This document shows, one piece after another, positions 14,675 to 33,902 of a DNA stretch of 64,000 nt (within the stretch, counting starts at the first letter, position 1; each line of letters starts with the position of its first letter). A model generated the notes under the pieces. It did not search any database, was not told where the DNA came from, and saw nothing but the letters and a program-made list of their open reading frames with translations. This DNA is from Mycolicibacterium tusciae JS617 (GTDB lineage Bacteria > Actinomycetota > Actinomycetes > Mycobacteriales > Mycobacteriaceae). The DNA is taken from the NCBI RefSeq assembly GCF_000243415.2, contig NZ_KI912270.1, positions 744,001 through 808,000 on the forward strand. Reading direction: 5' to 3'. The position numbers and the translations under genes are program-made.

Positions 14675-14854
14675 CGGCTTCTCAATGACCTGCCTCGCAG
14701 CATTGTCGAGCCGGACCGCAACATCATCGAGGTCGCTCGGGAAGAGAGCAAATGGTGACGTCGGATATTGAAACTGTCCGAATGCGTCGGGACCCCAGCA
14801 CGCCCCGCGGCAAGCTGAGGTCCATCGCCTCGCTGTACCTGTCGACGTGTAAGC

Positions 14855-15508
14855 ATGTCGGTCATGGGCCTATCGCCCTCACACGAGTTCATCGCGCGCC
14901 GCTATGACCGCCTGGCATGGGCATATCGGCTGATCGAGTTGCTGTTCTGGCTGCCACCGAGGTTCCGCCGTCGGGCGGTCGACCGCCTCGAGTTGAGACC
15001 CGGAGACCGGGTGCTGGAGATCGGATGCGGAAGCGGGCGAAACCTCGGACTGCTGCGAAGTGCGGTCGGCCCCACCGGCCTGGTCGAGGGCATCGACATC
15101 TCGCCGGGCATGCTCGCGCGCGCCACCCGCCTGATCACCCGCCGCGGCTGGGCGAATGTGAGCGTGGTCGCGAAGGACGCCGCGAAAGTGGAGAGCGCCG
15201 AGTGCTTCGAAGCGGTTCTGTTCAGCCTGTCGTACTCGGTGATCCCGAACCGTGACCTAGTGCTGGCGCGCGCGTGGGGTTCGCTGGTCAAAGGGGGACG
15301 CCTGGTGATCATGGACGCCTGCCTTCCCGAGGGTAGACGTGGTCGCTGGCTCCGCCCGCTCGCCGTGTCGATGAGCAGGGCGACGGTGCTCGGCGACCCG
15401 GAGATTCGAGCCTGGGAAGAGCTTGCAGGCCTGAGCCGACCAGTGAACACCGAGCGGAACCGGCTGGGCAACTACGTGATCACGAGCATCCGGAAACCGC
15501 TTGCGTGA
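14855..15508 (+). CDS. Class I SAM-dependent methyltransferase
   Basis: 217 residues. Motif I is VLEIGCGSGRNLGLL, followed by VEGIDISPGMLARA and the motif IV-like VLFSLSYSVIP. It resembles the UbiE-like / phosphatidylethanolamine N-methyltransferase group with a basic N-terminal region. The ATG at 14864 (MGLSPSHEF) is an alternative start. The substrate is not known. It is the last clearly chromosomal gene before the recombinase island. Confidence 0.8.
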   Translation: MSVMGLSPSHEFIARRYDRLAWAYRLIELLFWLPPRFRRRAVDRLELRPGDRVLEIGCGSGRNLGLLRSAVGPTGLVEGIDISPGMLARATRLITRRGWANVSVVAKDAAKVESAECFEAVLFSLSYSVIPNRDLVLARAWGSLVKGGRLVIMDACLPEGRRGRWLRPLAVSMSRATVLGDPEIRAWEELAGLSRPVNTERNRLGNYVITSIRKPLA

Positions 15509-15698
15509 AAACGTTTCACCACGTCGAGGCCGGCCAGCCCCGCACCGGCGGCAGGGCGTTCAGGTAACAAGTGGGACGGCTCTCGGAGGGGACCTGCGAA
15601 GGTTACTGAGATGTCAAGGCGGCTGGGAGGGATCGGGCTTTGCAACCCACCCAGTGCGAGCGCCCACTTATGGAGCCAATTCACACCGTCACCCCGGG
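15509..15698. other. Intergenic edge of the recombinase island
   Basis: 190 bases between the methyltransferase and the end of the zinc-ribbon recombinase gene. No convincing gene, tRNA fragment or inverted repeat matching the far side of the island (30.1-30.3 kb) was found, so the left end of the oldest element is not defined. Confidence 0.4.
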
Positions 15699-18119
15699 CT
15701 ATGCACGCGTCTTCGTGTTGCGGGTCAGAGAATTTGGCCGTCGGCTGATGTGGGCGGCGTAGTTCGTCCAGTCGCCGGCCGAGAGGCGTTGCCAGGAAAC
15801 AGCGACGTCGGTGTGAATGCCAAGCGTGCGGGCCAGGATTGCTGCCGGGATCTCGGTGGCGAGTTGAAACAGTGCGGTGCTGCGAGCAGCCCCGGGGCGG
15901 ATGCCGAGTCGGTTCAACCGCTGAGTGAGCTGGCCGGTGCTGATGGGCCGACCGGGTTGGCCGCCGGGAAAGAGCCAGATCGAGGGAGTTAACGCACCAA
16001 TGGTCGCGTGGCCCTTGCGATTTGACACAACCAATCGGGCCAGCTCGGCGACGGGTTCGGGCAGGTGTATGGGCGAGCTGCCCAGATGCAACCGGACCGG
16101 ATCAACCTCGGTTTCGACGTCGACGATCGTCATCCGGCAGATCGCAGCCGGTGTCTGGGCGTAAAGCAGAACGAGCAGACCGGCCAGCCGGTCATCGGGC
16201 TTGAGGCTGTCGTCGTGCAACAGGCGGCGCGCGATGTCCCAGCGGTGCTGGTCATCGAGGGGTCGGGTAGGGCCCATCCAGCGGTGGGCGCCGACGCGGA
16301 CACTGGTCAGCTTGTTCCGATGGGCCCATCGGATGAAGTGTCCCGCCGCCCCACGATGTGTCGCGGTGGCGTCGGTGAGCCATCGATCGAGGTCGCTGTG
16401 CTGACAGCTGCCCAGCGTGAGCTGGTGTTCGGTGAGCCAGTCCAGGAAGGCGACGGCCGCGTATATGCGTTGGCGCACTGAGTTGAACTGCTGGATGGTG
16501 GTGGGGTGGCCGTTGTTACGTTGCCGCAGGCGACGGGTCAGGTGCCAGACGGTGTAGCGGTGCAGCACCTTCTGTTGCTCGGGGTTTGTTTGCGCGGCCA
16601 GGGTCTGGTCGATGAGCCGCTCGATGCGGACCATATGTTCATCGCGTCGTGGTAGCGCGCCGACGCCGATCAGGACTTGGCGCAGGTGAGCGAGAGGCGG
16701 GCTGTGGGGCAGTTCATCGAGCGCTTCGTGTGTCAACGCCCGGCGCCCAGCAGCCAGATCGGCCAGCACAGGCGCGACGGACTTCTTCTTCAGCCATCGC
16801 ATGGCGGTGATGGGGTGTTCTGCGGTAGCGATGTTGTGCCGCAACGCCTGTAGTCCGGGATGGAGTGCTGCCGAGGGCGGGCCGAGGAGCTCGTTGAGGC
16901 GTTGATTGATTCGGCATCGAACGCATTGGCCGGGATGCGGATGGGACGGGTCGCTGCAGGTTGGGCAGTCGTGCCAGACCGCGCGGGTGGTGCAGTCCTG
17001 GCAGTGCGGATGGGTGAGGGTGCCCGAGATCACGGCGGCGTTCCGTCCGCAGGAACAGCATCGGGCCGTGCGGCTCTGGCAGGCAGGACACCACGGCCGA
17101 CCGGTGATTCGCGAGGTGCCGCAAGGCGTTTCCTCACCGCAGATCGAGCAGGTTGCGGTTGGCAAGGCCGGGCAGGTGCCGCAGATCGGCCCGTCCGGCG
17201 TCCGCAGGTTGACCGGGCGGCGGCGGCCGCAGTTGAGGCAGACTTCGAGGTTGTTGGGGTCGGTGATCAAACAGTTCGGGCAGAGTGGTCGGCCGTGCTC
17301 GTCCCGAGTGGCCGGTTCGCGGCGGGCGCCGCAGCGTGCGCATTCTTCGATGCGGGTGTGGGCGATGCAGGTGCGGCAGACACGCTGCCCGTCGAGAGGT
17401 TTGTCGATCCGGACGACACGACCGCAGAGAGGGCACGCCGGCCGGACGATGCCGGCAACGCCAGCGGCGTGCAGAGCATCGATCAGCGGGATGATCGCGC
17501 GGACAGGGGCGAGATGCCCGGCGCCGGTGAGCAATTCGGGTTGAGCCTCCAACGCCCACGCGATCCTGCGTTGATGCGCGGGCCGAGACGCAAGTCTGCC
17601 AACCGAGCCGGCAATGAGGTCGCGGTCCACAGCCGGATCCAGCCGGGCAACCACGTCGCAGATGACCGAGATCGGATCGCGGTCATCGCGATCCGGGCAG
17701 TGCGCGCAGCGGGGCCCTCCGGCGCGATCACGCGTCGAGACGTGCCGAAGCTGCCCGCAGGCCACACAAGGCGCCGGACGCAGGCTGCAGGCCCCGCAGT
17801 ACCAGTCCTGACCACGACGCTGCAGGGTCCGCATCGGCTTGCCGCACTCGCCGCAGACCGGCGGCGAAACCTCCGCGCCGGCTTTTCGCAGTGCTATCAG
17901 CAGGTCGCCGACCGCCCGCGGCGCCGGAGAGCGTCCATCGGTCAACACGGCCGGGCGCCCGGCGAGAAACGCTGCCAGACGCCGCGATTTCGCCCGCCCG
18001 CCCGCGACGCTGGTGACGACCGACCTGACCCGCTCAAGTGCAAGCCGGTCATCGACCGCCACCACCAGGTCCGCGATGAACCCGACCGGATCCAAAACCG
18101 AGCGGTCGCCGATGGTCAC
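15699..18119 (-). CDS. 806-residue zinc-ribbon protein with a degenerate tyrosine-recombinase-like C-terminus
   Basis: The N-terminal half (about residues 89-410) carries roughly eight successive CxxC zinc-knuckle pairs: CGECG, CVACG, CPLCG, CARCG, CLNCG, CSICG, CCSCG and CPTC, each followed by a second Cys pair. The C-terminal half has the layout of a phage-integrase protein: a core-binding-like helical part, then LLVLLYAQTPAAICRMTIVDV where GLRxxEL normally stands, and LARTLGIHTDVAVSWQRLS where LGHxxxxTTxxYxH stands. The first catalytic Arg and the nucleophilic Tyr position (Trp here) look lost, so it probably binds DNA or assists rather than cuts. It overlaps the XRE gene as GTGA. It is the last gene of the oldest, minus-strand element. 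Confidence 0.75.
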   Translation of the reverse strand: MTIGDRSVLDPVGFIADLVVAVDDRLALERVRSVVTSVAGGRAKSRRLAAFLAGRPAVLTDGRSPAPRAVGDLLIALRKAGAEVSPPVCGECGKPMRTLQRRGQDWYCGACSLRPAPCVACGQLRHVSTRDRAGGPRCAHCPDRDDRDPISVICDVVARLDPAVDRDLIAGSVGRLASRPAHQRRIAWALEAQPELLTGAGHLAPVRAIIPLIDALHAAGVAGIVRPACPLCGRVVRIDKPLDGQRVCRTCIAHTRIEECARCGARREPATRDEHGRPLCPNCLITDPNNLEVCLNCGRRRPVNLRTPDGPICGTCPALPTATCSICGEETPCGTSRITGRPWCPACQSRTARCCSCGRNAAVISGTLTHPHCQDCTTRAVWHDCPTCSDPSHPHPGQCVRCRINQRLNELLGPPSAALHPGLQALRHNIATAEHPITAMRWLKKKSVAPVLADLAAGRRALTHEALDELPHSPPLAHLRQVLIGVGALPRRDEHMVRIERLIDQTLAAQTNPEQQKVLHRYTVWHLTRRLRQRNNGHPTTIQQFNSVRQRIYAAVAFLDWLTEHQLTLGSCQHSDLDRWLTDATATHRGAAGHFIRWAHRNKLTSVRVGAHRWMGPTRPLDDQHRWDIARRLLHDDSLKPDDRLAGLLVLLYAQTPAAICRMTIVDVETEVDPVRLHLGSSPIHLPEPVAELARLVVSNRKGHATIGALTPSIWLFPGGQPGRPISTGQLTQRLNRLGIRPGAARSTALFQLATEIPAAILARTLGIHTDVAVSWQRLSAGDWTNYAAHISRRPNSLTRNTKTRA

Positions 18120-18454
18120 GGCCCCTTGGCGCCGCGGACGCGCGCCCGCTTGGGCCGCAGCTCGCCGATGCCGGCTTCAGCGCCGACCGCCTTCTTCGCG
18201 CGAGCGCTCGCCTGCGCCGAGACGGCGGGCTCGATCAAATCGTCGATCGTGCAGTCGAGGATGTCCAGCAGCGCCATCAGGACCTTCAGGCTCAGCCGTT
18301 CGGGTCGCTCGACGACCAGCCGGTAGACCTGGCTGGACGACAAGGTGATGCCGCGCTTGTCCAGCGGCTCGATCAGATCGGTGGTCGCGAACATGCCACG
18401 GTCGGCCATGACCTTCCGCAGATGCCAGTGGTAGTCGAGCTTGGCGGGCATCAT
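18116..18454 (-). CDS. XRE-family helix-turn-helix regulator of the minus-strand recombinase element
   Basis: 112 residues from the first of two tandem ATGs (18454). A Cro/C1-type helix-turn-helix spans about residues 5-70 (GITLSSSQVYRLV is the recognition-helix region), followed by LDILDCTIDDLIEP, the usual XRE ending, and a basic Lys/Arg tail. It overlaps the upstream integrase stop by one base and the downstream zinc-ribbon gene by four, so the three genes form one operon. It probably represses or tunes the recombinases. Confidence 0.85.
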   Translation of the reverse strand: MMPAKLDYHWHLRKVMADRGMFATTDLIEPLDKRGITLSSSQVYRLVVERPERLSLKVLMALLDILDCTIDDLIEPAVSAQASARAKKAVGAEAGIGELRPKRARVRGAKGP

Positions 18455-18984
18455 CAGTCCTTGTCTGCCGGAGGGATCGAAGCAAGCGCGGGCGCGAGCG
18501 CCTTCTGCAGCATGGTGTTCATGAAGTCTGAGCTGACATGGGTGTAGATGGCCGTGGAACTGTCGCACTCGTGCCCAACCTGGGATTGGATGAACCGCCG
18601 GTCAACACCGTCCTCGGTGAGGTGAGTGACGAACGAGTGACGGATTGAGTGGGGCACAAGGTCTTTCGACAACTTCAACGCATCCCGATAGGCGACGAAC
18701 CGAGCGTTGATCTCCGCAGGCTTGATCCGCCCGCCCCGCTCAGTCACCCACAGCGCTGGATGATCGGGGCACCCGAACTTCGGCCGCACGTTCTCGACAT
18801 AGTCAGCAACGGCATCTACTGCCCAATCCATCACCGACAACACATTCCGCCGCCGCGGCGGCTGCCCCCGTTTCGCCTTGCCGTAGCGCACGTTGAGCGT
18901 GCCGAACCCGCCGAACTGCGGCGCAGCCGCATTGCGGCCGAAGTCCACCAGGTCGAGCTTGGCGGTCTCGGTCCGACGCAACCC
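18454..18984 (-). pseudogene. Tyrosine recombinase, C-terminal half (gene split by the element at 18985-29561)
   Basis: About 175 codons remain. They hold the complete catalytic domain from the first Arg: GLRRTETAKLDLVDFG, HSIRHSF, VGHECDSSTAIYTH with nucleophile Tyr. Directly at GL|RR the frame runs into foreign DNA whose inverted repeat starts at 18985. The missing N-terminal half (ending IYGWGL) lies at 29562-30107 on the same strand. Joining the halves at the 6-bp spacer restores GWGLRRTE in frame and a protein of about 356 residues. It is followed by the XRE and zinc-ribbon genes. Confidence 0.9.
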
Positions 18985-18996
18985 TTCTCCGGGGTT
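18985..18996 (+). repeat. Left terminal inverted repeat of the middle element
   Basis: ttctccggggtt. It directly abuts the integrase codons GGG-TTG on the minus strand and pairs with 29550-29561. Confidence 0.85.
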
Positions 18997-19119
18997 GCCT
19001 GACCTGTTGCGCCATGTTGCTCGACCGGGAGGATCGGGCGGGTTGTTCGGCGTTTCTCCGGGGGTGTGGTGCTTGTGGCTGGTAGTCGTTTGAGACTGTC
19101 GACCAGAAAGCGAGAGATC

Positions 19120-20287
19120 ATGCGAGCATTCCCGGTGAGTTTGCCGTCGGGGCAACGGTATTGGACGGTGCTGGACGAGGACCTGCACGTGGTGGGTGTT
19201 GCCGACGAGTATCTGCGGCATCTGCGGTTCGGCCGCGACGCGGCCGAGTCCACGACCAAGGCGTACGCGCATTCGATCGCGTTGTTTCTGTCGCTGGTGC
19301 GCTCGATCGGGGCGCTCCTGGCAAGGCGGTGTCGAGGGTTTCGCACTGTTCATAAGGTGGTTGGCGCACGCCGGGGGACCGGTTGAGGACACCGCGAGCG
19401 GAGTGGTGGCCGGTCCCGGCGCTGCTACGCTGCGGTGCCCATCGCGGATCAACGGTGTGCTGACGGCGGTGCGGGGCATGGTGGTACACGCGGTCGCGAC
19501 CGGCACCGGGGCGGCGGGACTGGTGTCGATGCTCTACGAGGTCGCCGACGACCGGGACCTGCCGGCCGAGGCCCGCGGCGAGGACGGTCGGATGGCGTGG
19601 CGGATGCGGGCCCGGCATCGGCTGCGGGAACCGGAAACGACGATCGATCGGGCCAGCGATGAGCAGATCGTCGCGATACTGCGGGCCTGCCGTTCGGCGC
19701 GGGACCGGCTGATCGTGCTGTTGATGGCGCGGGGCGGGTTGCGCCGCGGGGAGCTGTGCGGACTGCGGCGCAGCGATATGCACCTGCTGGTGGATTCGCG
19801 CCGCCTGGGCTGCGAGGTGGCGCGGGCGCATCTGCATGTGGTGCGCCGCGAGGACAACTCGAACGAGGCGTGGGCCAAATCGCGCCGGCAGCGGGTGGTG
19901 CCGCTGGATTTCCTTGTGGTGCAAGTGTTCGACGTCTACGAGTTCGAGCGCATGCGCGTCGCCGATGCCGCCAATAACGATTTCGTGTTCGTCAACCTGT
20001 TCCGCGGCAAAATCGGTAAACCGATGCGCCCGGACGCGATCGGGGAGTTGATGGCCGCGGCGTCGCGGCGCGCCGGACTCGACGTCGTGGTGCGGCCCCA
20101 CCAGCTGCGACACGCGTACGGCAGCAACGTTGTTGATGCCGGAGCCGGGGTCGACGTGGTCGCCGATTTGCTTGGTCACGCGGCGGTGTCCTCGTCGCAG
20201 GTTTATCTGCATCCCGACTCCTCCCGGCTGCGGGCGGCCGTCGACGCCGTGCCCAGTCCTCGTGAACTCGGTGCGGTGACCCGGTGA
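19120..20287 (+). pseudogene. TnpA-like tyrosine recombinase of the middle element, one frameshift
   Basis: MRAFPVSLPSGQRYWTVLDE begins at the ATG 19120 and runs to SLVRSIG. The frame then shifts by +1 at a gggg run (19309-19312), and the other frame continues with RSWQGGVEGFALFIRWLAHAG. Removing one G gives a 388-residue protein. Catalytic residues are all present in the second frame: GGLRRGELCGL, HQLRHAYGS, LLGHAAVSSSQVYLH with Tyr. It would cut and rejoin DNA at the element ends together with TnpB. The shift is either real decay or a sequence error. Confidence 0.82.
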
Positions 20288-20305
20288 CCGCCGCAAGCTT
20301 GGCCC

Positions 20306-22122
20306 GTGTCGTGGGCGGTGACCGGGAAGGGGATCGAGTTCCCGCACGTGCTTATCGGTGCCGCTTTCGATGGTCCCGCTGCAGCGCTGGCGCGAGCGCT
20401 GGACAGGGCGCTGTTGGAGGAGGCCGGATGGGATCCGGTCGCTCGAATCCTGTTTCTGCCCGTCGGACACCGGCTCCTCGGCCGGAAAGTGTGTCGGGTC
20501 GAGCAGTGCACTGCGACCGCCCATTACAACTACCCCGACATCTGCCACCGCTGTTTTACCAGGCTGACCCGCATGGGCATGACCGTGGACGACATCGCCG
20601 CCCGCGAGAGCCTTCCCGCCGCGCCCGTCCCGGCACCGCACTGCGCGGTCCCGAAATGCCGATGCGTGCCGACGGTCCCGGGTGCAGTGTTGTGCGAACC
20701 GCACGCTTCCAACTTCCGAAACAGGCGGATTCCCGTGACCGTCGAGGAGTTCGTGCGGCATCCGCGGGTGCGGCCCCATCCACCGTCTCCGGCCTGCTCG
20801 GTTCCGGCGTGCACCCGCACCGCAGACGGGGCGATCGGTTACTGCGGCACGCACTATCAACGGTGGTCCGTAGCTCAACAGAACGGCCCCGGACTCGACG
20901 AACAATCGTGGCGGACACGCGAATCGGGAGTGGCCGAACCAGGGCAGGTGAACCTGCGGAAACTGCCCGAGCTGGTCGTGGTGGAAGTGCTGGTCGGCTT
21001 GCAGACCCGCGTTCGGGAGGGCCTGCGGCTCACCGACGTTGTGCTGCGGGCGGTCTGCGACACTTTGCGCCGCCACCAAGTCGCCTCGATCCACGACTGC
21101 GAGCCGGGCCTGGCCCCCTGGCTTGCGTGCACGCTCGGTGCTGGCCTCGTTCGCCCGCGACGCCCGCCGCGCGCTCGCCGACCCCGGGGGCGAACAAACC
21201 CAGGACATCTGGGATCTGGCCATTTTCGGTCACCCCGGGAGGCTGTCCTTCACCGCGATCACCCAACCATGGCTGGCCGATGCCGCCAAACGATGGGCGG
21301 CCGAGCAGCTTCCGCATCACCGGGGCAGCGGTGCCTCTCGTGTGCGCGGCAAGATCAACAATATCGGGTTGCTGTCCGAACACCTCGCCCGCCGACCCGA
21401 CCGCGGTCTCGACCCCGCCGCGCTTGGCCGGACGGACCTGGAGGAGTTCCTCAACCGGCTCGGCCATCTGGAGTTCACCGGTCGGATCGGTCGCTACCGG
21501 CGCAACATGATCTGCCGGGACGTGCGCCAAGTGCTGGCAGGCATCCGCTCTCTGGGATTGACCCGACCCCGGCAGCCGGCTGCAGGATTGCCCGGCGACT
21601 TCGCGATCGAACGCATCGACATCCCCGCCGATCCCGAACGCGGTGAGCCCGGACGCTGCCTGCCCGCCGAGATCATGAACGTCGTGTGCTCGAACCTCGA
21701 CACCCTCGAGCCCGCCGAAGTCAGGGTCGCCACCCAGATCGGCATCGACACCGGCCGCCGGCCCGAGGACATTCTCAACCTCACCCTGAACTGCCTGGAC
21801 CGAGACAAAGACGGCGGGGAGGTGCTCGTCTACGACAACATCAAAGCCAATAGGCTTCGCCGCCGATTGCCGATCAGCACGACAACCGCCGCGGTCATCA
21901 CAGCCCAACAACACCGCGTCCGACATCGTTTCCCCGACACGCCCATCGCGGAGCTGAGATTGCTGCCCACACGGGTACGAAATCCTGACGGGCGCAAGGC
22001 AATCAGCACAAATACCCTGGCGGCTCGTCACCGTGACTGGCTCGCCGCGCTGCCCACCTTGCGCACCGAAGACGGGACCGAATTCGACAAGACCCGGGTG
22101 GTGCCGTACGCCTACCGGCATT
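20306..22122 (+). pseudogene. TnpB-like tyrosine recombinase, N-terminal part (split by inner element, one frameshift)
   Basis: The 5' part encodes a Cys-rich N-terminal region (CRVEQCTATAHYNYPDICHRCF, CAVPKCRC, CSVPACTRT), consistent with small zinc-binding modules. Near 21120-21135 the frame shifts by +1; the continuing frame reads RARSVLASFARDARRALADP. The first catalytic Arg region, QIGIDTGRRPEDILNLTL, is present. The frame then reaches VVPYAYRH and enters the inner element at 22123. The rest of the protein is at 28233-28899. The rejoined, corrected protein has about 826 residues. The GTG at 20306 is a tentative start. Confidence 0.85.
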
Positions 22123-22132
22123 TTGTCCCCGC
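22123..22132 (+). repeat. Left terminal inverted repeat of the innermost element
   Basis: ttgtccccgc, paired with gcggagacaa at 28218-28227. It begins right after the spacer ggcatt. Confidence 0.85.
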
Positions 22133-22226
22133 TTAGTTCCCGTGTTGCGATAAGCCGGGAAGGGGCTGGTGGCCTTGGTGTTTGGCGGTTGCGTCGAGTC
22201 GTGTGGTGTTTCTAGCCTGTTCGCTT

Positions 22227-23696
22227 GTGATCCTGAGCTTCTTCTCGTCGCAAGGCTGGCGGTCCTGGGATGTCGAGCACCGGCCGGTGATTCCGGAGGG
22301 GATGCCGGTGCTAATCGATGACGACCTGCTGTTCGAGGACGGCCTCGGGGCGCCGCGATCGGTGTCGGCGGCGAACCGGTGGCTGCGGCTGCTTCCGGCC
22401 AGCGGGGCGCCGGCGCCGAGTTCGTGGGAGAACTACGCGCGGGCAGTCAAGGAGTGGACGGAGTTCCTCGCTGAGCACGGGATCGGGTTGTTCGACACCC
22501 GCGACCGGCTCAAGGCCGGGCTGAGCCGGTATGCCGAGCACCGCGCGGCCGGGCCAATTTCGGCGAGGTTCGCTGCGACCACGTGGTCGCAGCACATGAG
22601 CATCCTGTCGCTGTTCTACCGGTGGGCGATCGACGAAGGAGTTGCCGCTGCCGAGCCGTTCACCTACCGGTCGGCGCGGGCGGTCTTCGCCGGCACCGGC
22701 CGCGATGTCCGGGTGAATCTGGCGTCGCGCCGCACCCCGAAACCACACGTGACCATCAAGTATCTGGAGCCGGACTTCACCGACCTGTTCCGCAAAGGGT
22801 TACGCGGTTTGGCACCGGATGGCAACCGCGACAGCGGGTTCGCGGGCCGGGAGATGACCCGCAACGCCGCGATCGGGGATCTGGCGTTGGCGACCGGGTT
22901 GCGGTTGGGCGAGTTCACCCATCTGCTGCCGTGGGAGGTTCCGGCGCTGCCGCTGGCGCCGACGGCGATTCCGATCCCGTTTCCGGTGCCGGCGGGAATC
23001 ACCAAGGGCCGCAAGTTCCGCACTACCTGGATCTCTTACGACGCCCTGGCCGGGCTGCACGACTACCTGGAGCTTGACCGCGCGGCCGTCACCGAAGGGT
23101 CGGCCTGGCGACCGCCGCGACGGTGGGGTGAACCGCTGCTGGTGAGCGACCCGGATGCGCGGGGTGGCCGGGTCAACGGTGTTCGCCGGTCGTGGGAGTC
23201 GCTGACCCCGGCCGAGCGGCGTCGGCTGGTGGCACCGAAGGGCGGGTCGTGCCTGCTGGCGGTGAAAGCCGATGGTGGCCCGTTCACGGCGTGGGCGACG
23301 GTGTTCGAGCGCACCGCCGACCGGATCCGCGCGAGGTTCGAGCCACGGTTCCCGCATGTTCACCCGCACCGGCTGCGGCATTCGTTCTCGATGCAGACCT
23401 TGGAATATTTGGTGACCGGCTACTACCGGCAGGCGGCAAAGCTGGTGCGCGACACCGACGCCGACGCGGCGCTGGTGTTCTACCTGACCAAGGCCGATCC
23501 GCTGCTGGTGCTGCGGGACCTGTTGGGTCACTCGACGGTGTTGACCACGGAAAAGTATCTGAAACGCCTTGATACGACCCGGATTTACCGGCAAGCCTAC
23601 GAAACCGCCGGCGTGGAATCCGGACTCGTCGGCGAGGACGCCGCGCAGCGGGAATCCGACGCCGAATTCCACGACGACGCCGAGGAGGTGTTGTGA
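22227..23696 (+). CDS. Tyrosine recombinase 1 of the innermost element
   Basis: 489 residues from the GTG at 22227 (VILSFFSSQGWRSWDVEH); the frame is open back to a TTG at 22182. A SAM-like core-binding domain (residues about 60-150) precedes a catalytic domain with all expected residues: LATGLRLGEFTHL (Arg), HPHRLRHSFSMQ (His-x-x-Arg), LLGHSTVLTTEKYL (His and nucleophile Tyr). It ends with an acidic tail and overlaps the next gene as ATGA-type coupling. It is the one recombinase of the region that looks fully intact. Confidence 0.85.
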   Translation: MILSFFSSQGWRSWDVEHRPVIPEGMPVLIDDDLLFEDGLGAPRSVSAANRWLRLLPASGAPAPSSWENYARAVKEWTEFLAEHGIGLFDTRDRLKAGLSRYAEHRAAGPISARFAATTWSQHMSILSLFYRWAIDEGVAAAEPFTYRSARAVFAGTGRDVRVNLASRRTPKPHVTIKYLEPDFTDLFRKGLRGLAPDGNRDSGFAGREMTRNAAIGDLALATGLRLGEFTHLLPWEVPALPLAPTAIPIPFPVPAGITKGRKFRTTWISYDALAGLHDYLELDRAAVTEGSAWRPPRRWGEPLLVSDPDARGGRVNGVRRSWESLTPAERRRLVAPKGGSCLLAVKADGGPFTAWATVFERTADRIRARFEPRFPHVHPHRLRHSFSMQTLEYLVTGYYRQAAKLVRDTDADAALVFYLTKADPLLVLRDLLGHSTVLTTEKYLKRLDTTRIYRQAYETAGVESGLVGEDAAQRESDAEFHDDAEEVL

Positions 23697-25420
23697 TGCC
23701 GACGATGGTTGTTGACACTCCGCTCGGTCTGAGCTGCGTGTTCAGTGACGGCAGCAGAGCCGAATTCGACCTTACGGGGTCGCCGAACCCCAGGTTGGCG
23801 CGCGATCTGGCCGTCGGTTTGGTGGAGCTGATACACCCCCACGGCAGTGCCGATACCGCTGGCACGGTCGGCCACTACGTGCGTGGGTTGCACAGGATGG
23901 TGCGAGCGCTCGCCGATCAGGGGTTCACCGGCGGCATCGCCGATCTGCGGCGCGGGCAGTTGGCGCAGTTCTGGATGGCGGGCCCGAACTGGTTGGAGGC
24001 GCTGACTCGGTCCTTGGTGGAGGGTTACGCGCGATCCGGCGGCCGTGTCGGCGACGGCGTGGTGGAACTGGCCGCCGGGCGGCACTTCAACATTCAGCCG
24101 AATCGGCGGCCGTTGCCGCCCTACTCCGAGGCTGAATGGCAGCGACTTACCGCGGTCTGCCGACAGCAGGTCGATGACTCCTATGCCACGCATCGGCATG
24201 CGTTGGCGTCCGTTCCCGGAGGGCGGCATCCGGGCGCGGGCGCGTGGTCTCACCAGAACTTCTGCTGGTTGCTGGCGACGCACGGCCCTCTCGGCAGCTG
24301 CGAGGCCGCTGAGACGATTGGCATGTCTATCAACGTCTTCCGCCATCGAGGAGTCACCACTGTCTTCCACGAGGCTGCGCAAGCGATGTTCCCGCACCTC
24401 GAAGTCGTGGTCGCCTACCGGCTGCTGTTCGGGATCTACTCCGGCATCGTCCCGGACGGTATCGCCGACCTGGAGGTCGGAGACATCGACTGGGCCGGGG
24501 ATTCGACTGTTCTGCTGTCCTATGTCAAACGCCGCACCGCCGCCGAGAGCACCACCTTGCCGCGGCCAGCGGTGCGGTTGCTCGAGCAGTGGCTGGCGCA
24601 CTCGGCGCTGCTGCGCCGCTTCGTGCCACCGGACGAGCGCACCACGCTGTGGTTGGGGATGAGCCAGCCCGGTTACTCCCGCCGCCTCGGCGAGGTGAAC
24701 CGGTCGGCGACCGGGCGGTGGATGCAACGCCACAGCATCGTCGGCGACGACGGCGAGCCGCTGAAACTGCACCGGTCCCGCATCCGCACCACGCACCACG
24801 CGATGCGAGACAAGAAGTCCTGGACCGGGAATGCGCGCGCCACGATCGACCCGAACCACACCCCGGCGGTCGAGGGCGACCACTACCTGTCGGCAACGAC
24901 TCCCGGCCAACGCCACGCCGTCGAGACGATCATCGCCGACGCCCAGCACGACATCCTCCGCCGCGCACACCCACCGACCGTGATCACCGCGGAAGACGCC
25001 GCAGCACTCGTCGAGGGCTACCCGCAACTGCTGGCGGTGATGAAGCTCGACGAAGGCGTGCTCGCCGAGCTGGTCGGTGGCACGCGGGATGTATTCACCG
25101 CGGCCTGCGCCGATCAGCTTTCCGGGCTGCACGGACCGGCCGGGAAACCATGCCCGGCACGTCCGTGGGTCTGCCTGCTTTGCCCGCTGGCGGTGTTCGC
25201 TCCCCGGCACGCGGTGAACCTGTTGCGGCTCAAGGCATTCTTCTCCCGCCAGTGGCAGCAGATGCCCGCCGCCCACTTCATGACCGTCTTCGGCCGCTAC
25301 GCCGCCCGGATCGACCAGATCCTGGACCGCTTCGACCCCGCCGAACTCACCGCCGCAGCCACAAGAATCACCGACAGCGACAACGAAATCCCCTTGCGCC
25401 CGGAGGAACTCACCGCATGA
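23693..25420 (+). CDS. Recombinase 2 of the innermost element, divergent active site
   Basis: 575 residues. Its size, position and the pattern YRLLFGIYSGIVPDGIADLEVGDI, LKLHRSRIRTTHHAMRDKK and a later HTPAVEGDHYLSAT suggest a tyrosine-recombinase fold. The first catalytic Arg position reads IVPDG rather than GLRxxE. An HRSR box and a Tyr are present, so activity is uncertain. A CPARPWVCLLCPLAVF Cys cluster near the C-terminus is typical of large actinobacterial recombinase partners. It probably acts as the middle member of a three-recombinase complex. Overlaps both neighbours by 4 bases. Confidence 0.7.
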   Translation: MMPTMVVDTPLGLSCVFSDGSRAEFDLTGSPNPRLARDLAVGLVELIHPHGSADTAGTVGHYVRGLHRMVRALADQGFTGGIADLRRGQLAQFWMAGPNWLEALTRSLVEGYARSGGRVGDGVVELAAGRHFNIQPNRRPLPPYSEAEWQRLTAVCRQQVDDSYATHRHALASVPGGRHPGAGAWSHQNFCWLLATHGPLGSCEAAETIGMSINVFRHRGVTTVFHEAAQAMFPHLEVVVAYRLLFGIYSGIVPDGIADLEVGDIDWAGDSTVLLSYVKRRTAAESTTLPRPAVRLLEQWLAHSALLRRFVPPDERTTLWLGMSQPGYSRRLGEVNRSATGRWMQRHSIVGDDGEPLKLHRSRIRTTHHAMRDKKSWTGNARATIDPNHTPAVEGDHYLSATTPGQRHAVETIIADAQHDILRRAHPPTVITAEDAAALVEGYPQLLAVMKLDEGVLAELVGGTRDVFTAACADQLSGLHGPAGKPCPARPWVCLLCPLAVFAPRHAVNLLRLKAFFSRQWQQMPAAHFMTVFGRYAARIDQILDRFDPAELTAAATRITDSDNEIPLRPEELTA

Positions 25421-27622
25421 CAAGCACAATCGCGACCACGGCACCCGGCACACCCCCACGGTCCCCGTTCACCGGCGCCGACATCTGCCGCGAAGCCGGG
25501 CTCACGCTGCCAGACCGCACCTCACGACCGGTGTTCGACGACGACCTGTGGGATTTCACCGACGTCGTCGGGCTCCCGGTCCAGATGGCCCTCTACCGGC
25601 GGCGATTCGACTTCACCACCATCACCGACCCACGTTGGCGGCTGGTCGTCAAGGAGCTGATCCTGGCGCTGCTTGCCCCGAACCATGATGCCGTGGTTCG
25701 GCTGCCGCGCGCCTACCGCACCGCACTGCATCTGACCAGCTGCTACAGCCGACTCTACGAGGCCGGGACGTTCTTCGGCTGGCTCGACCGGCGGGGAATC
25801 ACTGCCCTCACCGAAGTCGATACCCGCCTCTGCGAGGACTACCTGGGATTCCGACGCTATGTCACCGACTCCGACGGCACCGTCGTGGGCGAGCAGAGCC
25901 CCGGCCTCCGGCGCGCTGCCGCGCAGATGATCGTCGACCTGGTCGACTACCGTGACCTGTTCACCACCGACCGGGTTCCGGCCGATCTGCGTCCTTGGGG
26001 CGGCGCGACAGCGTCAGCGGTCGCCGAAATGCCTTCTGGTCGTGAGGGAAACAAGACGCCGGCCGTCCCTGCCGAAGTGCTGCAGCCGATGCTCGCCGCG
26101 GCCTTGCACCTGGTGCAGACCCTCGGCCCACACGTTGTCGAGCTGCACGAGCAGATCCGCCACATCGACCGCATTTGGGCTACGAAGGCACCGGGCCTTC
26201 GTCATGGCTCGTCGGCGATGATCAGCGACATCAACAAACTGCTGGCCGACCACAGGGTGACCAACACGCCTCTGCCGATGCTCGAAGACCACGATGTCAG
26301 ACGCCGACTCACGGCTGGCTGGGACGCGAACAACCCGCTGCTGCCGGTCTCCACCGGAGCCCCTGGCCCGGCAGGCCGGATACGTCCAGTTTTGGGCGAA
26401 ATGGATGCCCGCGCTGCGCAAACCGCTGATCGACACCCTCCACACTGTCGGAGTCGAGAAGGTTTTCGCCCGCAACGCCGCACAGGCACCGACCGCCGAC
26501 GACTCAGCCCTGTTGCCCTGGACACTGCCACTGCACCGATCCGAAGCGGTCGCCCTGATCGGCATCACCCGCACCGCGGCCATCGTGGTCCTGGCCGCCG
26601 CGTCCGGAATGCGGGCCAGCGAGCTGATGGAACTGCGGGTCGGCTGCTGCCGCCCGGTCGAGGAACCGATACCCGGTCTGAAGCGCTACCGCGTCGCCAG
26701 CAAGATCATCAAAGGCCAGGGCCTGGGTGGCACCGACGACGAATGGGTCGTCATCGAACCGGTCCACCGCGCAATCGAGCTCATCGAACAGCTCCATGAC
26801 GACCCCCACGAGGGCGCTCTTCTGCTGTCCCGGTTCAGCTTCCGGGTCCGTTACCTATGGTTTCGCGCCTGGGTGAACTCCCCGGCCGGGGCCCGCCTCG
26901 GACTCGCCCCGATCCCCGACGAACCAGTAGCACTGCGGATGCTGAGGCGCACGGTTGCGTTGGAGATGGCTTACCGGCCCGGCGGTGTTCTCGCAGCAAA
27001 ACTGCACCTCAAACATATCGCTGCCGCCACTACAGAAGGCTATGCGGCTCGACCGGGCGGTGCTCAAGCGGAGTTGCTGGCCGAAGTCAACAAGCTCGAG
27101 GCCGACCACAAACTCCAGCTCGTGCTGGCCGAGTTCCGCAACTACCAGCAAGGAATCCTGCCCGCCGGGCCCGGTGCCCGCAACCTGACCGAATTCTTCG
27201 CCAGCATCGACACCGACCTCGACACCGAAGCGATTGCGGCGCCCAAGATCCAGCGCAACGACCGCGACATCCTCAACCTGCTGTCCAAACGCGCGAAGGC
27301 ACTGCATCTCGGCCCGGCGAACTATTGCTGGTTCACCGATCCCTCGCGCGCACTCTGCCTGAAACTCGCCGGCACCCCGACCTCGGACCGCCCGATGATC
27401 GGCATGTGTGACTCCGCGCGCTGTCCGCAGGCCACCCACCACCAGCACCACCGGCCCATCTGGGCCGAGCACGCCGAACTCACCAAGACCCTCCTCGGCC
27501 AACTCGGCAAAACCCGCACCACCGAACACACCCGACTACAGACCGACTACGACCGCGCCGTCCGGGTCATCACCAGCATCGACACAGCCACCGGGACCGG
27601 CGCAACCGAGGAGCAAGCATGA
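25417..27622 (+). pseudogene. Recombinase 3 of the innermost element, one frameshift
   Basis: MTSTIATTAPGTPPRSPF starts at the ATG 25417, overlapping the previous stop. The first frame runs to NPLLPVST; after one extra base near 26356-26357 the other frame goes on with EPLARQAGYVQFWAKW. The corrected length is about 734 residues. The catalytic part reads AASGMRASELMELRVG (Arg), RMLRRTVALEMAY and HLKHIAAATTEGYA with Tyr, the TnpB-like form common in actinobacteria. A late CDSARCPQATHHQHH looks zinc-binding. If the shift is a sequencing error, the gene is intact. Confidence 0.75.
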
Positions 27623-28086
27623 GAATCACTGCCGCCCAACGCATCCACAACGAGAACTGCATCCGCGCCGCCATGGACCGGCTGCTGCGCGGCGAGATCC
27701 CGCCCGGCGGCAGCTGCGATATCAAGACCCTCGCACTCGAGGCCGGGGTCGACCGCACGGCGTTCTACGGCACCCGGCCCTACGCGCACCTACGCACCGA
27801 ATTCGAGCACCGACTCCAGCAATTGCAAGAGGCGGGAGAAACCCCGGACCCGAAAGTCGCTCAGATCGAACGCCTCAAAGCAGAGGTTGACAAGCTCAAA
27901 ACCAACCTCGCCCAATCCAATTCCACAATCCAGGACCTCACCGACTTCCGGAGCCAGGCCCTGGCCCGCATCGCTGCCCAACACGACGAGATCCTTCGAC
28001 TCCGCGCCGCCGACAACCCGGCAGCAGCCGTCACCTGCCTCCAGAGTCGCCCGAAACCCCGGCAGAAAGTAATCGGACCATGCTGA
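27619..28086 (+). CDS. TnpC-like (DUF6262-type) helix-turn-helix/coiled-coil protein of the innermost element
   Basis: 155 residues. The N-terminal half contains a TetR-like helix-turn-helix (IKTLALEAGVDRTAFYGTRPYAHL). Residues about 65-120 form a coiled coil (IERLKAEVDKLKTNLAQSNSTIQDL). Small proteins of this shape follow paired recombinases in Tn554-like actinobacterial elements and are thought to help choose or orient integration. It overlaps recombinase 3 by 4 bases. About 130 bases of non-coding DNA separate it from the right end repeat. Confidence 0.75.
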   Translation: MRITAAQRIHNENCIRAAMDRLLRGEIPPGGSCDIKTLALEAGVDRTAFYGTRPYAHLRTEFEHRLQQLQEAGETPDPKVAQIERLKAEVDKLKTNLAQSNSTIQDLTDFRSQALARIAAQHDEILRLRAADNPAAAVTCLQSRPKPRQKVIGPC

Positions 28087-28217
28087 CCCCGTCGGCAGTG
28101 ACGTCCATCACAAACGATTTGGGTTTATCGCCACACGATCGGCAATCAGCGTCACGAACTACGCGCCGAGAATCGGCCACGTCAAACGCAACACGAACCC
28201 AACCGCACACGACCACT

Positions 28218-28227
28218 GCGGAGACAA
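28218..28227 (-). repeat. Right terminal inverted repeat of the innermost element
   Basis: gcggagacaa on the plus strand, inverted partner of 22123-22132, followed by the spacer ggcgct and then TnpB codons resuming at cgtatgcc. Confidence 0.85.
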
Positions 28228-28232
28228 GGCGC

Positions 28233-28899
28233 TCGTATGCCCAACGTCATGCGGACGCCGGAGTGCCGATCGACGTCCTGGCCGAACTGCTCGATCACCG
28301 AAGCTACTCCATGACTCGCCGCTACTACCGCATCGGCGAAGACCGTCGCCGCGCTGCCGTGGACACCGTCACCGCGCTGAGCTTCGACCGGCATGGCAAC
28401 AGGATCTGGCGCGATGCGCAGATGCTGTTGGACTCCGAACGCGCCCGACACGCCGTCGGGGACGGTTGCCGTCCCCTACGGCACCTGCACCGAGCCGACC
28501 AATGTCAAAGCCGGCGGCGGAGCCTGCCCGGTCCGGTACCGGTGCGTGGGCTGTGACCACTTCCGCACCACCGTGGCGTTCCCGCCCGAGTTGCAGGCAT
28601 ACCTCGATGATCTGCTGCGCACCCGAGAACGGCTGGCCGCCACCATTGATGGCATCGATGACTGGGCCCGTGCCGATGCCTCTCCGACCGAGGAAGAAAT
28701 CACCCGGGTCCGGCGACTGATCAACCGAATCAAGGGCGATATCACCGGCATCGACGACACCGAGCGAGCCCGCATCGATGACGCCGTCGCCATCGTGCGC
28801 CGTCACCGCGCAGCCCACACGGTGCCGCTCGGCATGCCCATACTCACCGTCACCCCGCCCGGACTACCCACCACACCTACGTCGGAGGCCAGTGCATGA
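28233..28899 (+). pseudogene. TnpB-like recombinase, C-terminal part (rest of the gene at 20306)
   Basis: The frame resumes with SYAQRHADAGVPIDVLAELL, directly continuing the VVPYAYRH at the other side of the inner element, then DHRSYSMTRRYYRI with the nucleophilic Tyr region. A +1 shift at the gggg run 28458-28461 moves the frame to VAVPYGTCTEPTNVKAGG, CPVRYRCVGCDHFRT (Cys cluster) and an acidic helical end. The corrected fragment has 221 codons before the stop. The stop overlaps the TnpC-like ATG. Confidence 0.88.
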
Positions 28900-29444
28900 C
28901 CCGCACCACGAACCCGCAAACCCAGCCGATGCTGGACGGCCGGCGCGACGACTCGGGGCGCCGCCGCAAACGGGTGCTGGCGGTGCTCGACCAAGCCGCC
29001 GCCGCGGGCGACCCGATCAGTGCGTCCGCAATCGCGCGCGCGGCCGGAGTCGACCGCACGTTCCTCTACCGTCACCGCGACCTGCTGGAGAAAATCCATG
29101 CGCTGCAAGCAGATCCAGTCCATTTGAACAGCGATCACGCGGTCACACATGCGTCGCTGCGGGCGGACCTGCTGGCCGCCCACGAACGAGCCGCCCGCCT
29201 CAACACCCGCAACCACCAACTGGAGAAACGGCTTTCCGAGGCGCTCGGCGAACATACCTGGCGTGAGTCCGGGCTCGGCAGCCCCGTCGACATCGACGCG
29301 CTCCACCAGCGCATCAGCCAGCTCGAACACGATAACCTCGACCTTCAACACCAGCTCGAGGAACGCGACGACGACCTGACCGCTGCCCGCGCCGCCAACC
29401 GAGAACCCATGGCCCGACTGAACACGCCGAGCCGGCCACAATGA
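28896..29444 (+). CDS. TnpC-like (DUF6262-type) protein of the middle element
   Basis: 182 residues. It has a basic N-terminus (GRRRKRVLAVLDQAA), a helix-turn-helix (ISASAIARAAGVDRTFLYRHRDLLEKI), then a long coiled coil (LNTRNHQLEKRLSEAL and ISQLEHDNLDLQHQLEERDDD). It shares the layout of the 155-residue protein at 27619 but is clearly diverged (AGVDRTFLYRHRDLL against AGVDRTAFYGTRPYA), so each nested element brought its own copy. Overlaps tnpB as ATGA. Confidence 0.78.
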   Translation: MTRTTNPQTQPMLDGRRDDSGRRRKRVLAVLDQAAAAGDPISASAIARAAGVDRTFLYRHRDLLEKIHALQADPVHLNSDHAVTHASLRADLLAAHERAARLNTRNHQLEKRLSEALGEHTWRESGLGSPVDIDALHQRISQLEHDNLDLQHQLEERDDDLTAARAANREPMARLNTPSRPQ

Positions 29445-29549
29445 CCCACCGCGAGCCCCCTTGCACCACACCTGTTGCAGCCGATAGCATCTCATCACCG
29501 GCCTCTAAGCTGCACAAACTCAGAGAACCGCGCTGCCGCACGGGGACTG

Positions 29550-29561
29550 AACCCTGGAGAA
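29550..29561 (-). repeat. Right terminal inverted repeat of the middle element
   Basis: aaccctggagaa on the plus strand, inverted partner of 18985-18996 with one mismatch, followed by spacer cagccc and the N-terminal half of the split integrase. Confidence 0.85.
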
Positions 29562-30107
29562 CAGCCCCCAGCCGTAGATCACCTTGAAGATCGTGGCATC
29601 ACGGTAAGCGGCAAGAGCCCCTTTACGTTTCGCCCGCACCGCGCGCTCGACCTGATCGTCGGCGTAATCCAGGAACCGCTGCAACTCCTCCCGCGTGAAC
29701 GGCCTAGCCTCCGGCCGACCCTCGTAATCGTTCAAATGAGCGATCGTGTTCCACTCGTGGCAGATCGCCACCGGATGGGTGCCGAACGCTTCCTCACATG
29801 CCACCGCCCACCCGTAGCGTCCGTCGATCAGGAACTCGCTGAACAGCCGCAACCCGCACTGGTAGCCGCGGATCGTCGACGGCGCAAGATGCTTCTCGCT
29901 GGTCAGCCAGAGCGACCACTCATCGATATGCGCCGGGGTCCACTGCCACGGGTAGTCGTTGACGAACTCCATGAACCGACGGACCAGGTTCTCCCGCGAC
30001 GTGATCGTCTCCTCACGAAGCCCGCGAGCAGCCTGCTGAGCACGCCAGCCACGAAACATCGCCTCCACCATCGCATCCTGCGGACGCAACGAAACCACAC
30101 CGGACAC
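29562..30107 (-). pseudogene. Tyrosine recombinase, N-terminal half (rest of the gene at 18454)
   Basis: The reading frame from about 30107 (GTG, VSGVVSLRPQDAM; an earlier GTG at 30167 is possible) encodes a core-binding domain: GLREETITSRENLVRRFMEFVNDYPW, HLAPSTIRGYQCGLRLFSEFL, and then ATIFKVIYGWGL. The last codon before the foreign inverted repeat is CTG of the spacer. The catalytic half, RRTETAKLDL onward, is 10.6 kb away at 18454-18978 on the same strand. This is strong evidence of insertion into one gene. Confidence 0.9.
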
Positions 30108-30271
30108 CAGCTCCAGATGAGCTGCCCCCGCCAGATCGACCCGCCGCAACCCGACCCCCCACGCCACCCAACAGTGAACGAATCATGCATCAAATGGGAT
30201 CACTTTGGCAAATGGCCAGGCCAGCAGCAGTTTTCACGGCATCAATCTGCTAGCCTGAAACCCCTACTCCA

Positions 30272-30962
30272 TCAGGCAACCGGGCGATTCTCGCCCATCA
30301 GATGCAATTCCCGAGCGTTGCCGTAGATGTCCCCAGTCACCGATATCGACGAATGCCCGAGCAGATCGGCCACGGCCTTGATGTGGACCTGGCCTTCGAG
30401 CCATGCCACGGCTGCCGAATGGCGCAGGGTGTGCACGCCAACGTCGGCCAAGCCCGCTTTCTGCGCGGCAATCTGAATCGTCCTCAGCGCATTTCGCGGA
30501 TCGACCGGCGTGCCAATCTTGGTGGCGAACACTAAGTCGTTGTCCTGCCACTGATCTCGCGCCGCATGACGTTCAGCCTCCTGGTTGGCGCGGTGGAGGC
30601 GCAGCATGGCGACGAGGGGAGTGGACAAGGGCACCGATCTGCGAGACCTGTCCGTCTTGGGTTCTGTGATGATCAGCTCGCCGTCGACGCGCCCGAGGGT
30701 GCCGCGGACCGTCACCGTCCTGGCCTCCAGGTCGACGTCGGACCAGTGCAACGCAAGCGCCTCTCCTCGGCGCACGCCGGTTCCCGCCGACGAGCACTAG
30801 GACATTGCGGTAGCGCAGGCCCTCGGCACACAGCAGGAGCTTGGAGACGTCGACCGTGTTGACGTGGCGGGCCTCCTTGCGGGCTACACCGGGATGCTTT
30901 ACCGCCGCCGCCGGGTTCTTCGCCAGCAGACCGTCTCGGACCGCACCATCGAGACTGGAGCG
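30272..30962 (-). pseudogene. Phage-type integrase remnant (5' truncated, one frameshift)
   Basis: The first part reads DGAVRDGLLAKNPAAAV, KEARHVNTVDVSKLLLCAEGLRYRNVLVLVG. Around 30780-30786 the frame shifts and continues GTGVRRGEALALHWSDVDL, HTLRHSAAVAWLEGQVHI and LLGHSSISVTGDIYGN, the full catalytic set. The N-terminal 150 or so residues are missing and an in-frame TGA (30963-30965) lies just upstream. After the catalytic Tyr the sequence departs from the family (ARELHLMGENRPVA), so the C-terminus also looks replaced. It lies directly downstream of the persulfide dioxygenase gene. Confidence 0.82.
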
Positions 30963-30983: not shown

Positions 30984-32330
30984 TCAGGCCGTCAGACCAA
31001 GCTTCTCAACCTTGTCGAAGGAATCGTCGACGAGCACGACATTGCGGTTGTCGCGGTCCAGCATGGAAGCCGCAATTGAGGCGCGGTAGCCAGATCCGCA
31101 ATGCACCCACACATCTCCGTAAGGCACCTCATCGATCTTGTCGGCGAGTTCGTGCAGCGGAATATTCACTGCTCCCTTCACGTGGCTCTTGTCGTGCTCG
31201 CCTTGCTGGCGGACGTCCAGCACTGTGAGTTGGGGTCGGTGGATGGACTCGGCGAGGTCGCTGAAGTCCGCAACGCGGTAGGACCGCAGTCGTGACCCGT
31301 TGGTGAGGCTGGAGATGTCGCCGACTGCTGCCCCGGTGAGGTTGTCGACGCCGATACGCACGAGTTCACGTCGCGCCTCGGCGATCTGCTCCTGGTCTTC
31401 GCCGATCAGTGTCAGTGGAGCGCCCCATGCGTAGAGCCAGCCGAGATAGGTCACGAACGATTTCGATAACTCGAAGGCGAGTGTGCCCTCGACATGTCCG
31501 GCGGCGAACGCGGTGCGGTTACGAAGGTCGACCACCCACTCGCCGAGATCGATCCTGCGCCGCAACTCGGTGGGGTCGACGGGTTGCGGCGTCGAGAGAT
31601 CGACGGGGGCGGGTCCCTGCTTGTTGATGACGCCCATGTGGGCGTAGTAGGCGGGGTGGGCCGACAGCCCGGAGATGAGTTCGTCAACGAAGCTCTGCTC
31701 GTCTTGGGTGAGCGCGGGGTTGTTCTGTCGTTCGTTGCCGATGGTGGACGAGTCGCCCTTGCTGGGCGTGGCCGAGCAGAAGCTGCCGAAGCCGTGGGTG
31801 GGGTAGACCTCGGCGGCGTCTGGGAGTTCGTCAGCCAGGCGTCGCACGGAGTGAAACTGTGCGTGGGTCAAATCCTGGGTGTCGTCGTCGCTGACCAGAT
31901 CGGTGCGTCCGGTTGTTCCGTACAGCATCGAACCGCCGGTGAAGACACCCACGGTGTCTCCGTCGCGGCCACGCAGGATGTAGCTGATGTGGTGGTGGGT
32001 GTGACCGGGCGTGTGTACTGCCTGGAACTCGAACTGCCCGGCGTCGATGATGTCGCCATCTTTGACGGCTCGGCGCTTGTATTGGACTTCGTCTCCATCG
32101 GGGACCACGTATTCGGCTCCTGCGACGCGGGCCAGCTCAAGACCACCGGTGACGTAGTCGTTGTGGATGTGGGTCTCCAGCACATGGGTGATCCGCACGT
32201 CATGCTCGTGGGCCAGCTTGAAGATCCTGTCGATGTCGCGTTGTGGGTCGATGACGACGGCGATGTTGCCGTCGCTGACCATGTAGCTGCGGTCACCGAG
32301 TCCCGAAGTTTCGATGATGGACACCTTCAT
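30984..32330 (-). CDS. Persulfide dioxygenase-rhodanese fusion (CstB-like)
   Basis: 448 residues. The N-terminal metallo-beta-lactamase fold has THIHNDYVTGG and HTPGHTHHHISYIL metal ligands, as in ETHE1-type persulfide dioxygenases. Two rhodanese-like domains follow: the first (VVDLRNRTAFAAGHVEG) lacks an active Cys loop; the second has HCGSGYRAS with the catalytic Cys. The enzyme oxidises glutathione-, mycothiol- or coenzyme-type persulfides to sulfite and moves sulfane sulfur. ATG with ggagg upstream (taken at about 32330). It lies downstream of TauE/SafE, DUF302 and the CstR-like repressor in one operon. Confidence 0.88.
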   Translation of the reverse strand: MKVSIIETSGLGDRSYMVSDGNIAVVIDPQRDIDRIFKLAHEHDVRITHVLETHIHNDYVTGGLELARVAGAEYVVPDGDEVQYKRRAVKDGDIIDAGQFEFQAVHTPGHTHHHISYILRGRDGDTVGVFTGGSMLYGTTGRTDLVSDDDTQDLTHAQFHSVRRLADELPDAAEVYPTHGFGSFCSATPSKGDSSTIGNERQNNPALTQDEQSFVDELISGLSAHPAYYAHMGVINKQGPAPVDLSTPQPVDPTELRRRIDLGEWVVDLRNRTAFAAGHVEGTLAFELSKSFVTYLGWLYAWGAPLTLIGEDQEQIAEARRELVRIGVDNLTGAAVGDISSLTNGSRLRSYRVADFSDLAESIHRPQLTVLDVRQQGEHDKSHVKGAVNIPLHELADKIDEVPYGDVWVHCGSGYRASIAASMLDRDNRNVVLVDDSFDKVEKLGLTA

Positions 32331-32353
32331 GAGGTCCTCCTCCTGGGTTTTCG

Positions 32354-33139: not shown

Positions 33140-33174
33140 GATCGTGTGCCGTGAGAGTCCGCTGGATTCCTGGC

Positions 33175-33585: not shown

Positions 33586-33620
33586 GTCACTCTCCTTAGG
33601 TTTGGTCGTGGTAATGGGCT

Positions 33621-33902
<282 letters not shown>

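Follow-up and report, generated by a model that had tools for sequence, protein, structure and literature searches.

The transposon Tn554 inserts at att554 in the radC gene. Tn554-like elements of actinobacteria have been listed in Mycobacterium, Rhodococcus and Streptomyces, and on targets that work goes no further than suggesting that several attB sites, similar to one another, may exist in multicopy carriers (PMC3414803). Among other elements built on tyrosine recombinases (YRs), GInts target an ABC transporter gene or ssb (PMC5385486), and SEs follow a rule in which the native 6 bp stay proximal to intA while those brought in by the circle are placed at the opposite end, with no empty donor site being produced (PMC10214605). 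YR families have previously been classified (PMC8138268). Here we describe a nest of transposons in a 64,000-bp stretch of the Mycolicibacterium tusciae JS617 genome (the window; positions 744001-808000 of contig C4, in a 7.3-Mb genome of four contigs), in which three YR-encoded elements, L1 (outer), L2 (middle) and L3 (innermost), lie inside one another. Our comparisons indicate that the attachment sites of these three families are, very probably, the DNA for the three catalytic boxes of YRs: the box I Arg would be the site of L2, the box II Arg that of L3 and the catalytic Tyr that of L1. The pattern of recombinase-codon targeting is strongly supported by sequence comparison, and from it we infer a mechanism.

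The nest is real and its hexamer junctions are exact (Table 1). An earlier note on this DNA had read three recombinase systems nested within one another, and both the nesting and its order stand; the levels are four, however, not three, as L1 itself lies in a further tyrosine integrase. The note had also joined two minus-strand pieces into one L1 integrase; aligned separately, they cover residues 1-196 (91% identical) and 193-370 (93% identical) of an uninterrupted 370-aa integrase of Mycolicibacterium aubagnense. The placement of L3 within tnpB is borne out by contig L206 (4464 bp) of genome G415, which holds L2 alone, more than 99.7% identical to the window, with the pieces of tnpB end to end; a search of G415 with part of L3 gave no match. 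An unbroken tnpB lies between tnpA and tnpC in G726 as well as in G415. The distant TnpB of Mycobacterium gordonae proved unusable as a reference for tnpB, and G415 was used instead. What did not hold is the picture of a rarity at one locus: the nest is present five times in the genome (copy A in the window, copies B, C, D and E elsewhere), which excludes a chance origin, and each family returns time and again to a catalytic motif of its own within YR genes. That recombinases serve as hosts follows from their genes being what the elements target. A further correction concerns reading frames: in the window copy, those of tnpA, of tnpB and of the large recombinase of L3 are shifted. Several of the single-base differences occur in copy A alone and may be assembly noise.

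The target of L3 was examined in 57 loci: 50 relatives on genome contigs (59-90% identity) plus seven others, of which five belong to this genome. From the 21 plasmid records, one locus (L040) was examined. Seven loci had no recognisable tip and in four the contig started at the tip, leaving 46 scorable loci. In 40 of these, the host reading frame ends at the Arg-His/Arg/Lys codons of box II (32 by sequence pattern and 8 of the Tyr-x-Tyr-Arg-His type). Judged by the final 12 residues, the 40 loci represent 29 different hosts, and all ten host halves tested end at position 134 of 172 of the PF00589 profile. One locus, L148, was scored as tipless in the main count yet shows box II in a separate inspection. 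The genome carries nine copies of L3: each of the five composites has one in its tnpB, and the other four occupy box II of further YRs, one kind of integrase being hit twice. A profile built from the 29 targets, the tnpB site included, places box II of tnpA, of L3 gene 1 and of tnpB at the top positions of the window. As box II of L2 tnpA and of L3 gene 1 outrank the occupied tnpB site, some self-avoidance by L3 would be expected.

Compared by gene order, L3 appears to resemble SEs, in which a YR, a protein without catalytic motif, a large YR and a small auxiliary protein follow one another, and it shares with them inverted repeats and the 6-bp fingerprint/footprint rule (PMC10214605). SE synteny blocks were reported from Gammaproteobacteria and from no other taxa, with few selected sites, whereas L3 is actinobacterial and enters box II of many YR genes. 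With GInts, L3 would have in common a four-gene recombination operon, a 6-nt staggered exchange and targets in coding sequence, but the targets named for GInts are the ABC transporter gene and ssb (PMC5385486). RIT elements likewise have three consecutive recombinase genes; in the archetype RIT all three carry the catalytic tyrosine (PMC10214605), whereas gene 2 of L3 apparently lacks it, and L3 has a fourth gene. The earlier note had described L3 as three recombinases with a TnpC-like protein. The four-gene order remains, but gene 2 shows no RHRY motif by eye and has no Pfam or NCBIfam match; gene 1 is a YR and gene 3 matches PF00589 weakly.

L2 is built like the described Tn554-like elements, with a short and a long YR, a TnpC-type gene, imperfect inverted repeats, no target duplication and a foreign hexamer at one end (PMC3414803). 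Its TnpA matches YR models and its TnpC is DUF6262. We surveyed 30 loci and scored those in which TnpA was at least 79% identical and both tip and flank were present (n = 19). In all 19, the host half starts with Gly-Leu/Met-Arg in frame, at the Arg of box I, and six distinct hosts are represented; the N-side host halves end at Gly-Leu/Met in the window, copy E, G415, G420 and G726. All six host types tested match PF00589, four of them from position 35. In a further close locus (L175) the contig starts at the tip, and none of the 22 plasmid records entered the counts. Tn554 has att554 in radC as its site, whereas L2 goes to the codon for the box I Arg in a variety of YR genes; since all 19 close relatives lie in YR genes and not in radC, L2 is Tn554-like and not Tn554.

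For L1, 49 loci were surveyed, of which 23 had a tip with at most one mismatch; the other 26 were distant, or their tip was doubtful or missing. Insertion places from 16 of 26 plasmid records were taken in, L038 and L041 among them. The tip falls at the Tyr motif of a YR in 18 of the 23 loci (16 in frame, 2 slightly beyond), and the remainder consists of two weak cases and three in non-YR genes. PF00589 was matched by 13 of 15 hosts tested, 12 of these 13 ending at positions 165-167; one Pfam batch gave eight matches in eight hosts, seven ending at position 167, and the four L1 hosts of this genome together with L165 end at positions 165-166. Copies A to D adjoin four different integrases, each ending at the Tyr plus one codon. 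On two Streptomyces plasmids (L162, L173), L1 relatives lie at the Tyr of TnpB-like genes.

Genera with targeted hosts include Mycobacterium, Mycolicibacter, Rhodococcus, Nocardia, Streptomyces, Nonomuraea and Kribbella. Could such a distribution arise by chance, through loose specificity, dispensable genes and recombinase-rich islands? YR genes are common on islands, and a few insertions do lie elsewhere. We consider this very unlikely, given that the same codon and frame recur in 29 L3 and 6 L2 hosts, the same motif in 18 L1 loci and the same Pfam profile position in most hosts tested, across several genera. Chance is thereby refuted for position and could survive only as a reason why specificity was selected. 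In the available portions of the SE, Tn554-like, GInt and YR-classification papers, our literature search found no description of recombinase catalytic codons as targets; the main RIT paper lay outside the search, and PMC12169178, which had seemed to bear on the question, did not. The chassis are known, and the targeting looks new.

Since the boxes occur in YR genes generally, those of the elements included, the elements enter one another and build nests. The relationships are circular: L2 lies in L1, L1 relatives lie in TnpB-like genes, and L3 lies in tnpB and in L1-type integrases. Insertion of L2 or L3 divides the catalytic residues of the host between two gene fragments, and the host enzyme should then be inactive. 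L1 enters after the Tyr codon, leaves the Tyr in place and provides its host with a new, short tail. A more far-reaching reading, which we offer tentatively, is that the three families form a guild of recombinase hunters that divide the active site of one superfamily among themselves, disarm their hosts, form a circular food chain (L2 into L1, L1 into TnpB, L3 into both) and spread as nests on recombinases acting in trans. The boxes may instead serve merely as the best-conserved DNA in abundant, dispensable and mobile genes, with the disarming of rivals as a by-product; we see this view as evenly balanced. It has parallels in radC for Tn554 and ssb for some GInts, and it is in keeping with the other relatives whose hosts are DNA ligase (PF01068) or ISL3 transposase genes and with the Tyr codon kept by L1, which may spare the host. 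The GInts, which use ssb or an ABC transporter gene (PMC5385486), point the same way. Less easily accommodated are the use of three boxes of one superfamily by three different chassis and the separation of catalytic residues by both L2 and L3.

The junctions suggest how the nest was assembled. L2 and L3 probably move by the route of SEs and Tn554, in which a circle would be copied out and copied in, the native hexamer being kept at the tnpA or intA end and the donor hexamer left at the other. Compared with the uninterrupted L1 of M. aubagnense, L2 has the native hexamer at its tnpA end, a foreign one at the other end and no target duplication; the two integrase halves overlap there by 6 bp at the DNA level (L038, 6275-6280). 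Against the empty site in G415, L3 has the native hexamer on the left and a foreign one on the right. The hexamers and the empty alleles fit the published SE rule and suggest an order of arrival, which has the 6-bp footprints and natural empty sites in its favour besides the nesting. Furthermore, a second integrase in the genome has, as its native box I hexamer, the very sequence that is the foreign hexamer of L2. This integrase also holds a copy of L3, whose left core agrees with the foreign hexamer of the nested L3 in all but the base beside the end. L2 and L3 may therefore both have come to the composite from this second integrase.

The same foreign hexamers recur among the composites, an argument for a single founding nest that was later multiplied. 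Because the integrase of every composite is split, movement of the unit would need help in trans, and the finished composite may have multiplied with an integrase supplied from elsewhere. Alternatively, the composite never moved whole: intact L1 would have spread first, followed by L2 and L3 through homing or gene conversion. Re-colonisation is indeed expected where sites are specific, and the integrase is split in every composite copy. However, such stepwise colonisation predicts right footprints that equal the native hexamers, and these were found for L3 in none of the five composites and for L2 in none of four (A to D; copy E, whose right side lies in another integrase, was excluded). The foreign hexamers common to all copies also argue against it, and the differences between copies cannot separate the layers by a tree. 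We regard stepwise colonisation as possible but somewhat doubtful. All 22 substitutions between the copies are singletons, and the only shared changes are two single-base indels, common to A and C. The differences carry no tree, and a dating of the copies by SNPs failed.

A similar nest of three levels, built on a different integrase family, occurs in six Mycobacterium records (L111-L116) from Mycobacterium helveticum, M. parascrofulaceum, M. nebraskense, M. scrofulaceum, M. gordonae and Mycobacterium sp. WUMAC-067. These are 99.98-100% identical over 10-17 kb and suggest that the nest has passed between species very recently. We mapped its layers in four of the six loci; one of the four ends before the N part of the integrase. 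Relative to the window, L3 is about 90% identical, TnpA of L2 79% and the integrase 47-52%, and this unequal divergence fits separate assembly by the same targeting.

Several observations weigh against targeting of the recombinase boxes as the general rule. Targeting is deduced from sequence. Six of the 46 scorable L3 loci lie outside box II (L125, whose host gene encodes a nucleoside hydrolase; L132; and four relatives of 59-64% identity), and 11 distant L3 relatives (28-62%), outside the counts, have no box II host. The 19 L2 loci reduce to six hosts and are mostly one insertion in related genomes; L2 relatives at 66-69% have no recognisable box target and were not placeable, and no box I host was found for those at 28-59%, those at about 54% lying in DNA ligase genes (PF01068). 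Three L1 relatives lie in an ISL3 transposase, a DNA ligase and a gene of unknown kind, the two weak L1 hosts (L161, L172) have no Pfam match, and below about 60% identity mostly no tip was found. We therefore restrict the recombinase-box claim to close relatives, with the three L1 exceptions, at 75-79% identity, even there. Distant relatives were dropped as support, having no recognisable box target or lying in DNA ligase (PF01068) or ISL3 transposase genes.

The flanks of the composites add to these difficulties. The host tails are exchanged: that of A belongs to the family of host B, that of B to host D and that of D to host A. Copy C keeps its own: the tail across its insert matches the end of P0001, an intact homologue, without a difference, and the rest of P0001 is 92% identical to host C. 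The pairing of the host D tail was made by reading the ends of three homologues by eye, a tail pattern having matched 0 of 120, and no relative of host A was found on plasmids. Copy E is a chimera cut off by the end of its contig, and its sequence does not resume at the start of contig C4. As the tails of A, B and D are permuted, the copies have recombined or the assembly was misjoined at the repeat, and one or the other is involved in these tails and in the chimeric E. All seven L1-type integrases scored in this genome are split, a difficulty for any account of how the five composites arose. Several composites could be assembly artefacts of the 15.6-kb repeat, a reading in line with the three permuted tails and the contig that ends inside E, and one that we lean against. 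Four right and four left flanks each end exactly at the L1 tips, L3 occupies nine places, and the same sites recur in other assemblies; misjoining alters the pairing of flanks, not the sites.

Additional observations concern the surroundings of these elements and of their relatives. A gene cluster with an MBL-fold hydrolase and a TauE/SafE-type gene (30984-33896, minus strand) adjoins the nest and matches actinobacterial plasmids at about 73-80%. The top five plasmid matches to the window come from Mycolicibacterium aubagnense (three), Mycobacterium gordonae (one) and Streptomyces (one). On the other side, a tRNA-Arg gene (14310-14385) adjoins the integrase tail at 14426-14749. The reading frame of this tail continues into another stretch, as it does at the end of homologue P0131; by its motif, that stretch seems to resemble a Phd/YefM antitoxin. 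Within L1, the 806-aa protein has no Pfam or NCBIfam match. The M. aubagnense L1 (L038) is flanked by other cargo, a MerR regulator and an MFS transporter, and the Streptomyces L3 relative L040 has a methyltransferase as neighbouring cargo. Genome G598 carries six equal-scoring copies of a 74% relative of the L1 integrase in one chromosome. An ATP-dependent DNA ligase gene is hit by relatives of both L1 (L085) and L2 (L190-L192, L194), apparently at neighbouring points of one conserved motif, and ISL3-type transposases are hit in their catalytic domain by L083 (L1 relative) and L059 (L2 relative).

Table 1. Features of the nest, in window coordinates
Feature	Coordinates	Strand	Remarks
Integrase tail on the other side of L1	14426-14749	-	Family of the host of copy B, not of the integrase at 30320
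L1 composite (integrase-HTH-zinc ribbon operon and cargo; carries L2 and L3)	14750-30319	-	Unit common to the genome copies
L1 cargo, class I SAM-dependent methyltransferase	14855-15508	+	
L1 zinc-ribbon-rich protein, 806 aa	15699-18119	-	C-terminus like a degenerate YR by eye
Cro/C1-type HTH ORF (HTH_26)	18116-18568	-	Second gene of the L1 operon
L1 integrase, C-terminal part	18454-18984	-	Starts at Gly-Leu-Arg of box I
L2 core hexamer, tnpA side	18979-18984	-	Native hexamer of the uninterrupted M. aubagnense L1
L2, tnpA-tnpB-tnpC with terminal inverted repeats	18985-29561	+	
tnpA of L2 (YR)	19118-20287	+	Start approximate; frame shifted in window copy
tnpB of L2, N-terminal part, to Arg-His of box II	20284-22121	+	Start approximate; frame shifted
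L3 core hexamer (box II Arg-His codons)	22116-22121	+	Native allele as in G415
L3, four-gene SE/GInt-like element	22122-28226	+	Nine genome copies
L3 gene 1, YR, 504 aa	22182-23696	+	
L3 gene 2, 575 aa	23693-25420	+	No Pfam or NCBIfam match
L3 gene 3, large YR-like protein	25417-27622	+	Open in two frames in window copy
L3 gene 4, small protein	27619-28086	+	In TnpC/Srap position
Foreign hexamer (footprint), L3 right end	28227-28232	+	
tnpB of L2, C-terminal part	28233-28899	+	Frame shifted in window copy
tnpC of L2 (DUF6262)	28896-29444	+	
Foreign hexamer (footprint), L2 right end	29562-29567	-	
L1 integrase, N-terminal part	29562-30167	-	
Host tyrosine integrase, tail replaced by L1	30320-30775	-	Frame broken toward N-terminus; catalytic-Tyr codon 30323-30325, L1 right end (30319) one codon past it

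In summary, the targeting of catalytic codons would explain why these actinobacterial recombinase genes are broken and nested. The breaks would form a readable record, in which each hexamer points to the previous host site. The codons of highly conserved catalytic residues can, on this evidence, be attachment sites, offering an element many sites and no single fixed locus. Competition between mobile elements thereby becomes testable at base resolution, and these families may supply recombinases that read short coding motifs common to a whole gene family.

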